Shown one piece after another: positions 40,991-52,215 of a DNA stretch of 64,000 bases. The notes beneath the pieces were generated by a model that worked only from the letters and a program-made list of their open reading frames with translations, searched no databases and was not told the DNA's origin. Each line of letters opens with the position of its first letter. Within the stretch, counting starts at the first letter, position 1. The position numbers and the translations under genes were made by a program. This DNA is from an uncultured bacterium (GTDB lineage Bacteria > Actinomycetota > Actinomycetes > S36-B12 > CAIYMF01), in the NCBI GenBank assembly GCA_903826575.1, contig CAIKEU010000068.1, forward strand, positions 1-64,000, read 5' to 3'.

Positions 40991-43900
40991 CTATCGCCCG
41001 GAGGCGGTGAGTGCGGCAGAAAGTGACTGCATGTAGCCGGTGCTGACGTAGGTTGCCCCGGAAACATTGGCGATGGTTGCACTGTTTGCCGCGATCGTTT
41101 CCTTATCGAGCGTTGCTAGTGCGGCGGCCTTCGTGGCGCCGGCAGTTGGCGTTCCGAGGATGCGGATGGACGTGCTGTCCTTGGAGGGAACAGTTCCCAT
41201 TGACGTCGCTCCGGTGATTACCGAGTTCGTCAACGTAATGGTGACCTGCACAGTGTTTGTCACGCCTTGGCCTTGGACCACAAAGCTGACGACCGGGCCG
41301 ACGAATGTTCCACTAACTAACTTCGGCGTTGGGGCAGTCGGTGTTGCAGTTACAGCCGTTGACGCAGGTGATAGCACCGAGTTCACAACGGCCTTGACGG
41401 TGTATGAATATGCGGTGCCGTTCGTCAAGCCGGTGTGGGTGTAGGACGCAGTAGTCGGTGATGCGACAAGGGTTGTTCCGGAGTACACGTTGTACGACGT
41501 CGCTCCTGCAACCGCTGTCCACGTCAAGGCCACCTGAGCGTTGCCTGCCGTCGCGGCAAGCCCCGTCGGTGCGGCCAACGTTGGTGTGGCCGTGGCGGCA
41601 GTTGATGCAGCGCTAACTCCGCCGGCGTTCACCGCCTCAACGGTGTAGCTGACTGCCGTTCCGGCGGTGAGGCTGGTGTCCACAAACGAGGTGGTCGTAG
41701 GTGACGACACCAGCACCGTTCCGCGGTAGAGCTGGTAGGACGCTGCTCCGGTAACGGCCGTCCACGAAACACTTACCTGACCGACGCCAGCAGTGGCTGT
41801 TAGGCCGGTGGGAATGCCAGGTGCGGCAACCTGCGGAGTCGCCGTGACGCCCGCTGATGCAGCACTTGATCCACCGGTGTTGTTGGCGGTGACGGTGTAG
41901 GTGTATGCCGTTCCGTTCGCCAGGCCGGTGTCGGTGAAGGTTGCAGTGGTCGGTGAGCCAACGAGCACGGAGTTGCGATAGACGCTGTAGGTGGTTGCCC
42001 CGGTGACGGCCGTCCACGAGACAATGACCTGTCCGCTGCTGGCTGTGGCGGTGACTCCAGTGGGTGTCGCAGGCTTTGCCGCGACAGGAGTTGCCGTGAT
42101 CGTCGCTGAGGCTGTGGAAGCCGGCGAATTCTGCTTGAACGCGACGATGTAGTACGAGTAGGTAACACCGTTGGTCAAGCCCGTGTCGGTGTACGACGGA
42201 GTTGTAATGGTGTTGCTCAGTAGCGAGCCATTGCGGTAAACGGCGTACCTGTCCGCACCAGTGGGCGCAGTCCAGGTGAGGCCGATTTGTGCGCTTCCCA
42301 CGGTGGCGTTGAGGCCGGTTGGAGCGCTCGGTGCAACGGCGACCGGTGTGGCGCTAACTGCCGACGAAGCGCTCGAAACGGTTGTGCCTATCAGGGCCTT
42401 GACGGTGTACGAGTACGCCGTTCCGTTCGTCAGGCCGGTGTCGGTGTACGCCGCCGTCGTCGAGGTGCCGATCTGAACGGCATTGCGCAGGATTTGGTAC
42501 GACGTCGCTCCCGCTGGAGCATTCCATGTCAGCGAAACCTTGGCGTCGCCGGCGGATGCTGCTAGGCCGGTGGGAGTTCCCACTGAGGCCGCCGTGGGGG
42601 TTGCTGAGACGCTGCCCGACGCCGCTGAAGCTGCTGAGTTCTGCTTGAACGCAACGACGTAGTAGGTGTACGTCGTGCCGTTTGTTAGACCGCTATCGGT
42701 GTATGTCGTTGTGGCGATGGAAGACGACGTGATCAGGGTGCCATTGCGATACACCTTGTAAGCGTCGGCGCCGGCGGGTGCAGCCCAAGACAGGATCACC
42801 TGACTGTCACCAGGGCTAGCAACAACTGCGGACGGTGCGGCCGGTGCAACTGCCGTCGGAGTGGCGGTTGCTGCACTTGACTGGGCGGACGGCGCAGAGT
42901 TCAGGGTGTACGCAACGACGTAGTACGAGTACGTGGTTCCGTTAGTCGCATTCGTGTCTTTGTACGTGGCCGTCGTCGACGTGCCGATGAGTGTTCCGCC
43001 GCGGTAGACACCGTACGAAGTGGCGCTCGCAGAAGCCGTCCACGTCAGTGATACCTGGCCGTCACCTGCCGCTGCGATCAGGCCCGTTGGCTGGCTCGGC
43101 GTGGTAGCCACAGGAGTCGCATTAACAGTCGCCGAAGCGGTTGAGGCCGCGGAATTACCCTTGAACGATACGACGTAGTACGAGTACGTCACTGCATTCG
43201 TTGCCGTTGTGTCCGTGTACGACGGTGACGTTGTGGTTGCCAGTGCCGTCCCGTTGCGGAAGACCTGGAAACTCGTCGCACCGGCGGGTGCTGTCCACGT
43301 TAGTGAGACGCTGGAATCGCCGACAACCGCTGCGAGATTCGTGGGCTTCCCCGTTGCGGCAGCCACGGGGGTTGCCGTTACTGCACTACTCGGGGCGGAC
43401 CCCGCTGAATTGTCGCGGTACGCAACAACGGTGAACGAGTAGCTGGTGCCGTTGGTGAGCCCGGTGGACGTGTAGGACGCGGCGGTGGACGTGCCGACAG
43501 AAATACCATCGCGGAAAATTTCGTAGTGGTTCGCACCAGAAGGTGCCGACCACGTCAGTGAAACCTGGCCATCACCAATAGTGGTGGAAATGCCAGCAGG
43601 AGCAGCCGGTGTTGCACCAACCGGTGTCACTGCTACTGCGCCAGACTGACTGGACTCGACAGTTCCGCGGATTGCCGTGATCGCGTAACTGTACGAGATG
43701 CCGTTGCGTGCGGACGTGTCGGTGTACGTGGTTGCACTTGTCGTCGCGATGAGATTTCCGTCGCGGTAGATGTTGTATCCGGTTGCTCGATCGCTGGCTA
43801 GCCATGCGAGAGCGACGCTGTTGTCACCGGCGGGAGCGAACAGTCCCTGCGGGGCACTCGGCGCAACTGCTGACGCAGTGGCAGTTGCGGTGTTGCTCAC

Positions 43901-44608
43901 CGGTGACGTACCCGCGGTGTTATGCGCGATGACAGTGTACGAGTACGTGGTTTCGTTGACTGCTGTCTGATCAATATAGGAATTTGTAAGGCTGGAGCCG
44001 ATTGTGACTCCGTCTCGTTGGATGTCGTAGCTGGTTGCATTCGCAACGGCAGTCCACGCAAGGGTGACTTCGCCATCGCCGGCAGTCGCTTGTAGCGTGC
44101 TTGGACGTGAGGGCAGCGACACGCGCGGGGCGCGGACGTAGTGGGTCGACCGCACCTGCTCAGTGACCTTGTTGATGACGGCGAGTTGCTGAAGTTCGGC
44201 GTCGAGGAGTGCGCGAGCCGACATCAGCATGCGGGTGCGTGTCTGACGCAGGGTTGATAGCGCCGTGACGTCATCTTCGCGGGTAGTAGTGGTCTTAGAC
44301 CCGCGGTAGGTGCTCACTGCGAGAGCGCGCACTTGGAGACTTGACTCGTATTGCTTGAGGGCGTTTTCGAAGTTGCGTTGGGCAGCGATTACGCGGGCAT
44401 CATGCTCGACGGCGGCGGAGATTTCGGCAGCTACTTCGCTGGCACTCTGACCGTAGTCGTTCTCGATGGCTTGACCTGGGGCGGCAGCGGCTGCCGCCCC
44501 AGGTGCCAGAAGGAGGTTTGCCCCCGAGATCGACGACACGGCAGCAGTGGCGCTGGCGATGGCCGCAACGGTCCGCTGAGCGGGGGTGAGGCGGTTTGTC
44601 GTTGTCAT
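40991..44608 (-). CDS. Surface protein: eleven FN3 repeats plus C-terminal FMN-binding domain
   Basis: 1205 aa. Signal peptide ~1-42 (ATAAVSSISGANLLLAPGAA), then an alpha-helical, probably coiled-coil region (~50-160, QRNFENALKQYESSLQVRAL), eleven fibronectin type III repeats (~168-1095; each ~84 residues with (A/G)DGQVSLTW and (Y/F)TDTGLTNGT(A/T)Y(S/T)Y), and an FMN_bind domain (~1097-1205) ending NVSGATYVSTGYMQSL. S1183-G-A-T1186 matches the ApbE flavinylation motif exactly, so covalent FMN on T1186 is likely. The FN3 stack would form a rod about 35-40 nm long, assuming ~3.5 nm per domain, that holds the flavin away from the membrane (inference). No LPXTG or membrane anchor at the C-terminus. 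It lies 33 bases upstream of the ferric-reductase-like gene. Confidence 0.85.
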   Translation of the reverse strand: MTTTNRLTPAQRTVAAIASATAAVSSISGANLLLAPGAAAAAAPGQAIENDYGQSASEVAAEISAAVEHDARVIAAQRNFENALKQYESSLQVRALAVSTYRGSKTTTTREDDVTALSTLRQTRTRMLMSARALLDAELQQLAVINKVTEQVRSTHYVRAPRVSLPSRPSTLQATAGDGEVTLAWTAVANATSYDIQRDGVTIGSSLTNSYIDQTAVNETTYSYTVIAHNTAGTSPVSNTATATASAVAPSAPQGLFAPAGDNSVALAWLASDRATGYNIYRDGNLIATTSATTYTDTSARNGISYSYAITAIRGTVESSQSGAVAVTPVGATPAAPAGISTTIGDGQVSLTWSAPSGANHYEIFRDGISVGTSTAASYTSTGLTNGTSYSFTVVAYRDNSAGSAPSSAVTATPVAAATGKPTNLAAVVGDSSVSLTWTAPAGATSFQVFRNGTALATTTSPSYTDTTATNAVTYSYYVVSFKGNSAASTASATVNATPVATTPSQPTGLIAAAGDGQVSLTWTASASATSYGVYRGGTLIGTSTTATYKDTNATNGTTYSYYVVAYTLNSAPSAQSSAATATPTAVAPAAPSAVVASPGDSQVILSWAAPAGADAYKVYRNGTLITSSSIATTTYTDSGLTNGTTYTYYVVAFKQNSAASAASGSVSATPTAASVGTPTGLAASAGDAKVSLTWNAPAGATSYQILRNAVQIGTSTTAAYTDTGLTNGTAYSYTVKALIGTTVSSASSAVSATPVAVAPSAPTGLNATVGSAQIGLTWTAPTGADRYAVYRNGSLLSNTITTPSYTDTGLTNGVTYSYYIVAFKQNSPASTASATITATPVAAKPATPTGVTATASSGQVIVSWTAVTGATTYSVYRNSVLVGSPTTATFTDTGLANGTAYTYTVTANNTGGSSAASAGVTATPQVAAPGIPTGLTATAGVGQVSVSWTAVTGAASYQLYRGTVLVSSPTTTSFVDTSLTAGTAVSYTVEAVNAGGVSAASTAATATPTLAAPTGLAATAGNAQVALTWTAVAGATSYNVYSGTTLVASPTTASYTHTGLTNGTAYSYTVKAVVNSVLSPASTAVTATPTAPTPKLVSGTFVGPVVSFVVQGQGVTNTVQVTITLTNSVITGATSMGTVPSKDSTSIRILGTPTAGATKAAALATLDKETIAANSATIANVSGATYVSTGYMQSLSAALTASGR
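41318..44107 (-). repeat. Tandem fibronectin type III coding repeats (11 units, ~253 bp)
   Basis: Eleven successive segments of about 250 bp encode the FN3 domains of the flavin rod protein. Units 3-8 share near-identical stretches (SLTWTAPAGATSY, YTDTGLTNGTTYSY), pointing to internal duplication; units 1-2 and 9-11 are more diverged. Confidence 0.85.
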
Positions 44609-50042: not shown

Positions 50043-50151
50043 GCATGTGCGCGCAAACTCCGGAAGCAGATCGTGGTTTGTCGACGTTTAGATCGTTGTC
50101 CGTGGCACGATGTTGGGAACGAACTGCTACGTCTGCTTGAGTGAGGAATTG

Positions 50152-52215
50152 ATGGATCCGCGTCACGCTGTCCTGTTCGAACCTGTGCAGATCGGGCCAA
50201 AGACTGCCCCAAATCGCTTCTATCAGGTACCTCACGCTTCCGGTTTTGGATCGATGAAACCGCGCACCCATGCGGCATTTCGGGCCGTCAAAGCTGAGGG
50301 TGGCTGGGGTGTGGTCAACGTTGATTACGCCCCTGTCTCGTTGGATTCTGAGGAGTATCCCGCGATCGCAGCAGACTGCTGGGATCTCGACGATATGAAA
50401 CGTCTTGGGCTTGTCGCCGATGCGATTCACGCCCACGGTTCCCTTGCCGGCATCGAGCTCTATCACGGGGGCGCGGAATCCCTGAACGGTGAATCGCGCT
50501 ACCCGAGGCTTGCTCCGAGTCAAATTGGATCAGACTGGCGTCGAAGCAGTTTCTGTAAAGAGATGACTTTAGACGACATCGCCCGCGTGCAAAGTGACTA
50601 CGTCTTAGCTGCGCAGCGGGCTCGCGATGTTGGCTTCGACATTGTGTATGTCTATGGCGCTCATGGCTATTTGATGACGCAGATGTTGTCGTCCGAAACC
50701 AATCGACGCACAGATCGCTATGGCGGTTCGCTGGAGAACCGGGCTCGATTCCAGCTTGAAACAATAGAGCGAGTGCGAGCCGAGATCGGTGCTGATTGTG
50801 CAGTTGCTGTGCGCATGGCCGTATACGGACGTAACGAGATTCCGGGGATCGAACTCGACGAAATGCTCGACGTCATTCGTTTGTTCGACCCCGTTGTCGA
50901 CCTTTTCGACGTCAATGTGGGGAGCTGGCCGGAGGACTCGGGCACGTCTCGCTATTACCCTGAGGGGCATCAGCGCGCCTGGACATCGCAGGTACGTCAG
51001 GCAACGAGTAAACCCATCGTTTCTGTCGGACGGTTTACCAATCCGGATCTCATGGCGTCGATGGTGCAATCCGGCGAACTCGATTTCATTGGCGCCGCAC
51101 GTCCTGCGATCGCCGATCCCTTTCTGCCGCAAAAGATTCGTGAGGGTCGGCTCGACGAGGTGCGTGAATGCACTGGATCGAACCTGTGCATCCTTCGCGA
51201 GGAGTCACTGGCACATGTTGGCTGTATCCAGAATGCGACGGCGGGGGAGGAGTATCGACGCGGCTGGCACCCGGAGATCTTTGTTCGACCACGTAATCCC
51301 GAGCGCGCAATCTTGGTTATCGGTGGTGGTCCAGCAGGGATGGAATGCGCGATGGTGCTTGGTAAGAGCGGATATGAAGCAGTGCATCTCGTCGAGGCAG
51401 GCGATGCACTCGGCGGAAAGATGCGCTGGACGCGAAAGTTGCCGACCTTGGGCGACTGGGGACGGGTTATTGATCACCGTGTGATTGGGCTCAACAAACT
51501 CGACAATGTCGCGGTAATTCTCGGTCGCACGCTGACTGTTGACGATGTGTTGGATTACGGAGCAGACACGGTCATCGTTGCAACGGGATCCTCGTGGAAT
51601 GGCGACGGTCTTCAATCTCACCGTCGTGAGCCCATTGCACATGCTGGGGTTGCCTTCACCCCCGAGCAGATCATGGCGGGGGCACGCCCGCCAATGGGCC
51701 GAGTCGTCGTCTACGACTGCGACGGTTACTACGTAGCTGCCGGTATTGCCGAGTTGCTTGCTGGTGAGGGCTATGACGCCCATCTGGTGACGTCGCTACC
51801 GCGGATCTCACCCATTTCTGATGAGTCGCTGGAAGGTGACTTCTTGCGTCAGCATCTTCACGACTGCGGCGTCGAGATGACCACGGGAGTGACGATCACG
51901 GGCGTGACAGTCTCGGGACACACACCCGATGGAGTTGTTGGGGAAACCGAGTATGGCGACGAGTGGCGTGACACTGCCGTCGGAGTTGTTCTCGTGACCT
52001 TGCAGGTCTCTGATGATGCGCTGTATCGCGATCTCATCAGTGATCGCCATCGTCTCGAAGCCGCAGGTATCACCGCGGTTTACGCAATTGGCGATGCGGT
52101 CGTGCCGCGCATGCCATCGGAGGCGATCTTCGATGGGCATCGCCTGGCGCGAGAACTTGAATCAGATGATCCGATGGCGCCAAAGCCATGGCTGCGCGAA
52201 CGTCCCGCCATCTGA
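50152..52215 (+). CDS. Trimethylamine/histamine dehydrogenase-like flavoprotein with altered cofactor residues
   Basis: 687 aa from ATG 50152 (GAGGA 5-6 nt upstream). TIM-barrel FMN domain (~1-370): VLFEPVQIGPK, NRFYQVPHASG, KAEGGWGVVN, FDIVYVYGAHGYL, and RTDRYGGSLENRARF match trimethylamine dehydrogenase. Then the iron-sulfur segment and AGEEYRRGWHPE, and a C-terminal FAD/NAD-like part (~385-687; ILVIGGGPAGMECAMVLG, VIVATGSSWN, AIGDAVVPRM). Two differences stand out. The Cys that links FMN in TMADH (Cys30) is Ala29 here. The [4Fe-4S] set reads C340-x2-S343-x2-C346-x11-C358, with one Cys replaced by Ser. Active as an amine or imine oxidoreductase, perhaps with noncovalent FMN (inference). Stands alone on its strand. 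Confidence 0.85.
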   Translation: MDPRHAVLFEPVQIGPKTAPNRFYQVPHASGFGSMKPRTHAAFRAVKAEGGWGVVNVDYAPVSLDSEEYPAIAADCWDLDDMKRLGLVADAIHAHGSLAGIELYHGGAESLNGESRYPRLAPSQIGSDWRRSSFCKEMTLDDIARVQSDYVLAAQRARDVGFDIVYVYGAHGYLMTQMLSSETNRRTDRYGGSLENRARFQLETIERVRAEIGADCAVAVRMAVYGRNEIPGIELDEMLDVIRLFDPVVDLFDVNVGSWPEDSGTSRYYPEGHQRAWTSQVRQATSKPIVSVGRFTNPDLMASMVQSGELDFIGAARPAIADPFLPQKIREGRLDEVRECTGSNLCILREESLAHVGCIQNATAGEEYRRGWHPEIFVRPRNPERAILVIGGGPAGMECAMVLGKSGYEAVHLVEAGDALGGKMRWTRKLPTLGDWGRVIDHRVIGLNKLDNVAVILGRTLTVDDVLDYGADTVIVATGSSWNGDGLQSHRREPIAHAGVAFTPEQIMAGARPPMGRVVVYDCDGYYVAAGIAELLAGEGYDAHLVTSLPRISPISDESLEGDFLRQHLHDCGVEMTTGVTITGVTVSGHTPDGVVGETEYGDEWRDTAVGVVLVTLQVSDDALYRDLISDRHRLEAAGITAVYAIGDAVVPRMPSEAIFDGHRLARELESDDPMAPKPWLRERPAI

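Follow-up and report, generated by a model that had tools for sequence, protein, structure and literature searches.

Trimethylamine dehydrogenase (TMADH) is the textbook model of electron flow that starts at a covalently bound flavin, crosses a [4Fe-4S] cluster and ends at ETF. The stretch of bacterial DNA analysed here (64,000 nucleotides in length, hereafter the window) contains a gene for a TMADH-like protein in which the cysteine that links the flavin and one of the four cysteines that hold the cluster are both replaced. The locus raises the question of what such a protein is, and which form of flavin and of iron–sulfur cluster it is likely to use.

The gene and its protein

The open reading frame encodes 687 amino acids followed by a stop codon (Table 1). 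An alternative in-frame ATG lies upstream at 50110; of the two, 50152 appears to be the better start, since a GAGG sequence stands just 5' of it and homologues start with MDPRHA. Pfam matches comprise Oxidored_FMN and Pyr_redox domains, and the AlphaFold2 model (mean pLDDT 94.5) adopts the three-domain TMADH/HADH fold, in which an OYE-type FMN barrel, a cluster linker and ADP/FAD domains follow one another. Of the solved structures, TMADH itself matches best (2tmd, TM-score 0.96), the scores against 2tmd, 3k30, 6de6 and 6l6j spanning 0.94–0.96, and the nearest solved sequences are likewise TMADH (1djq, 1djn), the histamine dehydrogenases and 6l6j. The likeness to TMADH over the whole length, which had been claimed in an initial sequence-only reading, is thereby borne out.

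Table 1. Features of the TMADH-type gene, in positions of the window or residues of the encoded protein
Feature	Position	Strand	Basis
TMADH-type FMN/Fe-S oxidoreductase, 687 aa	50152..52215	+	Pfam, alignment, model
Oxidored_FMN barrel	residues 8-335		
Cluster linker	residues 338-372		
Pyridine-nucleotide-type ADP/FAD domains	residues 385-670		
Ala29 codon, at the 6-S-cysteinyl-FMN cysteine position (TMADH Cys30)	50236..50238	+	alignment; 50152+3*28
Cys340, first cluster ligand position (TMADH Cys345), invariant	51169..51171	+	alignment
Thr341 (TMADH Ile346), beside the first ligand; clade-specific, Thr in whole clade, Ile elsewhere	51172..51174	+	
Ser343 (TCG), second cluster ligand position (TMADH Cys348); clade-wide Ser/Ala	51178..51180	+	
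Cys346, third cluster ligand position (TMADH Cys351), invariant	51187..51189	+	alignment
Cys358, fourth cluster ligand position (TMADH Cys364), invariant	51223..51225	+	alignment
Residues 428-432 (RKLPT), clade-specific Arg428 and Thr432 (TMADH Ala432, Gly436)	51433..51447	+	

With TMADH of Methylophilus W3A1 (2tmd, 1djn; C30A mutant 1djq) the protein has 42% identity, and it retains the Tyr169/His172/Asp267 triad, Arg222, three of the four cluster cysteines and, from the aromatic bowl, Tyr60 and Trp264. The differences are equally clear. As the sequence-only reading had also noticed, Ala29 aligns with TMADH Cys30 and Ser343 with Cys348, such that the 6-S-cysteinyl-FMN cysteine of the TMADH/HADH family is absent and its CxxCxxC-x11/12-C site for a [4Fe-4S] cluster is incomplete at the second of its four positions. 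Moreover, Trp355 is replaced by Glu, and the full aromatic bowl (Tyr60, Trp264, Trp355) of TMADH proper (EC 1.5.8.2) is not present. Glu stands in place of Val344 and Arg in place of Tyr442, as in most of the four-cysteine relatives; the Tyr442 position, which we take to be near the cluster and the ETF site, shares a loop with residues 428–432. The histamine dehydrogenases 3k30 and 6de6 have the fold, the cluster linker and the catalytic residues in common with the window protein but keep all four cluster cysteines, and both carry 6-S-Cys-FMN and a [4Fe-4S] cluster (PMC10180351).

Clade-wide loss of a cluster cysteine

Scanning species genomes yielded 63 related loci, and further ones came from searches of genomes of the family, order, class and phylum; duplicates were removed before alignment counts were made, and one frame-shifted fragment (L097) was set apart. 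No relatives were found among viral contigs. The second cluster cysteine is lacking in all of some 30 distinct sequences, which come from several actinobacterial families and whose named members all belong to the Actinomycetota; Ser takes its place in about 24 and Ala in six (L007, L014, L029, L073, L080 and L089), whereas the 60 other rows of the alignment have Cys. The other three cysteines are kept, the L097 fragment apart, and are invariant in all clade members, which reach down to ~58% identity and have a strongly conserved linker. An alignment of this segment in close homologues had been proposed as a check on whether Ser is conserved, with homologues that all have Cys counting against the change; what is conserved is the loss of Cys, with Ser or Ala clade-wide, and not Ser itself. 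From these alignments the change at the second cysteine defines a clade, which goes beyond what had been seen in the single gene. Four-cysteine paralogues are also found in the hosts G002, G206, G223 and G188, which thus also possess a protein of this fold with the standard cluster site.

Further substitutions, at residues beside the ligands, accompany the loss. In TMADH numbering, Ile346 to Thr, Thr365 to an aliphatic residue (Ile, Leu, Met or Val) and Ala432 to Arg each occur in 25/25 clade members and 0/51 others, and Gly436 to Thr is fixed in the clade and absent from the four-cysteine relatives in the tree. Among these clade-specific alignment columns there is no new Cys that might serve as a substitute ligand.

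In the maximum-likelihood tree the clade has an SH-aLRT support of 100, and the loss of Cys348 needs one change, while about four switches between Ser and Ala follow at this position. The first branches within the clade, L110 and L111, come from another family of the phylum and have Ser at 348 together with an intact Cys30; a fragment, L117, agrees with them in its cluster motif but is missing the flavin region. All remaining members have Ala at position 30. The simplest order would be that the cluster cysteine was lost first and the flavin cysteine second, since L110 and L111 lack the former and keep the latter. What emerges is a natural group in which a cluster ligand went first and the flavin bond afterwards, and in which living intermediates have given up only the ligand; the clade offers ready-made variants for studying the reason for a covalent flavin, the role of the fourth cysteine and the way in which the two redox centres are tuned to each other. 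As a separate matter, a Micrococcales group (L033, L034, L045 and L103) has Ala for Cys30 and keeps all four cluster cysteines, with EtfB and EtfA genes directly upstream of the TMADH-like gene in L045. A distant OYE-type Fe-S flavoprotein in a Rhodobiaceae MAG (L066:6001-7926, 28% identity) has CIGSLNC, a CxxSxxC motif that may reflect an independent loss of this cluster cysteine.

Between close pairs of the clade dN/dS is 0.07–0.14, wider pairs being saturated or nearly so at synonymous sites, a pattern indicative of purifying selection and, by the same token, of a functional gene. It is scarcely credible that the gene is decaying or misassembled and that the cysteine changes reflect drift or sequencing error: the sequences are MAG-derived and each change takes a single codon, but the same change recurs in many independent genomes, the reading frames are full-length with a dN/dS of ~0.1, and G002 and similar genomes carry four-cysteine paralogues beside the three-cysteine gene. 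Sequencing error and pseudogene status were ruled out on the clade-wide conservation, the intact reading frames and the low dN/dS.

The flavin and the iron–sulfur cluster

With regard to the flavin, we infer that FMN is held non-covalently. The solved homologue 6L6J (Pno/HisD, a 6-hydroxypseudooxynicotine dehydrogenase/oxidase, ~41% identity) likewise has Ala at the flavin-cysteine position and acts on a CH–NH amine, and its FMN is reported to be non-covalent (review, PMC7688666). The missing flavin cysteine is therefore real but unremarkable when taken alone, and, because Pno lacks it too, this cysteine is not a defining feature of the wider TMADH/HADH family. Unlike the window protein, however, Pno/HisD has four cluster cysteines, and a close relative of it, the Pno of strain S33, carries a [4Fe-4S] cluster and relies on EtfAB (PMC7688666). 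Non-covalent FMN by itself is thus already known; among the open-licence papers searched, no report was found of its combination with a three-cysteine cluster, nor of any three-cysteine cluster site in the TMADH family.

With regard to the cluster, the pattern seen in all of the ~30 distinct clade sequences, in which the second cysteine is replaced and the other three are kept, is that of CxxXxxC-type [3Fe-4S] proteins. Every bacterial ferredoxin with a CxxSxxC or CxxA/GxxC motif that one study characterised, the Ser version included, was obtained in the [3Fe-4S] form (PMC6237146). Among them, Fdx1-11 of Mycobacterium marinum, with the motif CxxXxxC(X)nCP, have the second cysteine replaced in a similar way by Ser, Ala and others (PMC6237146); these ferredoxins are small, differ in fold and share no homology with the TMADH linker, and the Pro that follows their last cysteine has no counterpart in the window protein. 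Glutamate synthase offers a precedent for FMN beside a native [3Fe-4S] cluster (PMC8097209), an arrangement like that proposed here, although its alpha subunit differs in protein family, cysteine spacing and reaction. By analogy with the ferredoxin motif, CxxS/AxxC...C most likely denotes a native [3Fe-4S] cluster. Neither spectroscopic studies nor iron analyses of clade members came to light. Taken together, we consider it probable that the window protein is a functional amine dehydrogenase built on the TMADH plan, with a three-cysteine iron–sulfur site, which is most likely [3Fe-4S], and with non-covalent FMN.

The sequence-only reading had instead suggested ligation by three cysteines plus Ser343. 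Ser ligation is known for engineered clusters, and Ser is present in about 24 of the ~30 distinct members; yet the six members with Ala stand on several branches, after about four switches among the same surrounding residues, from which it follows that Ser is not a required ligand. Such an exchange is what a position without an iron-binding role should show. Since, in addition, Fdx9, a native ferredoxin with CxxSxxC, was obtained in the [3Fe-4S] form (PMC6237146), a Ser-ligated fourth iron is very improbable, and the earlier suggestion is probably wrong in this respect.

A [4Fe-4S] cluster could also be retained by the three cysteines together with a ligand that is neither Cys nor Ser, such as water or hydroxide, Asp435 or a small thiol. 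Three cysteines suffice for a site-differentiated [4Fe-4S] cluster, and aconitase and the Asp-ligated Pyrococcus ferredoxin are precedents for a non-Cys fourth ligand. Asp435 is found in 29/29 clade members, others having mostly Glu, Ala or Gln, but it is also found in 6 four-cysteine relatives. While the CxxDxxC ferredoxin of Pyrococcus furiosus can hold either form, the CxxS and CxxA/G ferredoxins were isolated as [3Fe-4S] (PMC6237146). In view of the ferredoxin motif, the Ser/Ala exchange and the glutamate synthase precedent, this reading is placed second to [3Fe-4S] and is, in our estimate, unlikely.

Neighbouring genes, substrate and acceptor

The window's own neighbours, an Amidohydro_3 protein upstream on the other strand and an HrpA-type helicase downstream, are common only to near relatives and gave no lead to function. 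Elsewhere in the clade, in L126 and L130, the gene is closely flanked on either side by genes for DAO-GcvT fusion proteins, of the dimethylglycine/sarcosine dehydrogenase type, and is preceded by a Pot-type ABC transporter; in L008 one DAO-GcvT gene and a Pot-type transporter precede it; and in L133 it adjoins a Pot transporter, an acyl-CoA dehydrogenase and a Rieske oxygenase that NCBIfam matches best to glycine betaine monooxygenase GbcA, at a score below the cut-off. Because some relatives thus share an operon with DAO-GcvT, a Pot-type transporter or a Rieske oxygenase, an N-methylated amine is the likely substrate, as judged from these four loci, and the absence of Trp355 in the aromatic bowl speaks against plain trimethylamine. 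In most clade members the gene does not lie beside N-methyl genes. This includes the window's genome, where nine matches to the DAO-GcvT protein, a Rieske homologue at 46% and the ETF genes all sit on contigs different from that of the window. G002 has its DAO-GcvT, Pot, Rieske and acyl-CoA dehydrogenase genes in one group, without the TMADH-type gene. On contig 66 of the window's own genome (L155:2916-5917) a DAO-GcvT fusion gene is followed immediately by an ETF-family gene, a candidate pair for N-methyl oxidation and electron transfer.

ETF genes lie near 16/32 four-cysteine loci and near none of ~21 distinct three-cysteine loci, a comparison of loci that are related to one another and in part have short flanks; it is at most suggestive of a separation of the three-cysteine clade from ETF genes. 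This, along with the disappearance of both the flavin and the cluster cysteine, would suit a protein whose cluster is lost or vestigial and whose electrons leave FMN directly, for example to oxygen or a quinone-linked partner. Against it stand the strongly conserved linker with its three invariant cysteines, the intermediates with a flavin cysteine, in which the cluster site changed first and the other cysteines stayed, and the presence of ETF genes elsewhere in the host genome. A vestigial cluster is accordingly quite improbable; of the initial suggestion that electron transfer either bypasses or alters the cluster, the altered cluster is the part that stands as the best reading.

For an enzyme with a [3Fe-4S] cluster, a small and probably N-methylated amine would be oxidised at FMN by means of the retained Tyr/His/Asp triad; electrons would pass from FMN one at a time, via the retained first cysteine, to the cluster, and from there to an external acceptor, for which ETF and, in certain hosts, a GlcF-like Fe-S protein are candidates. 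As a tentative account, the lineage may have exchanged a [4Fe-4S] outlet for a native [3Fe-4S] cluster and later released the covalent flavin, both redox centres being retuned and an acceptor other than ETF being used. Two observations on possible redox partners and flavinylation may be added. Directly downstream of the gene L111, which keeps the flavin cysteine, is a GlcF-like protein (L137:1155-2414; CCG-domain, 4Fe-4S), a possible alternative acceptor. Within the window, 40991-44608 (- strand) encodes a secreted-looking protein of 1205 aa with fibronectin type III repeats, in which Pfam reported no FMN_bind and whose C-terminal end holds NVSGATYVSTGY, resembling a flavinylation (FMN_bind) motif.
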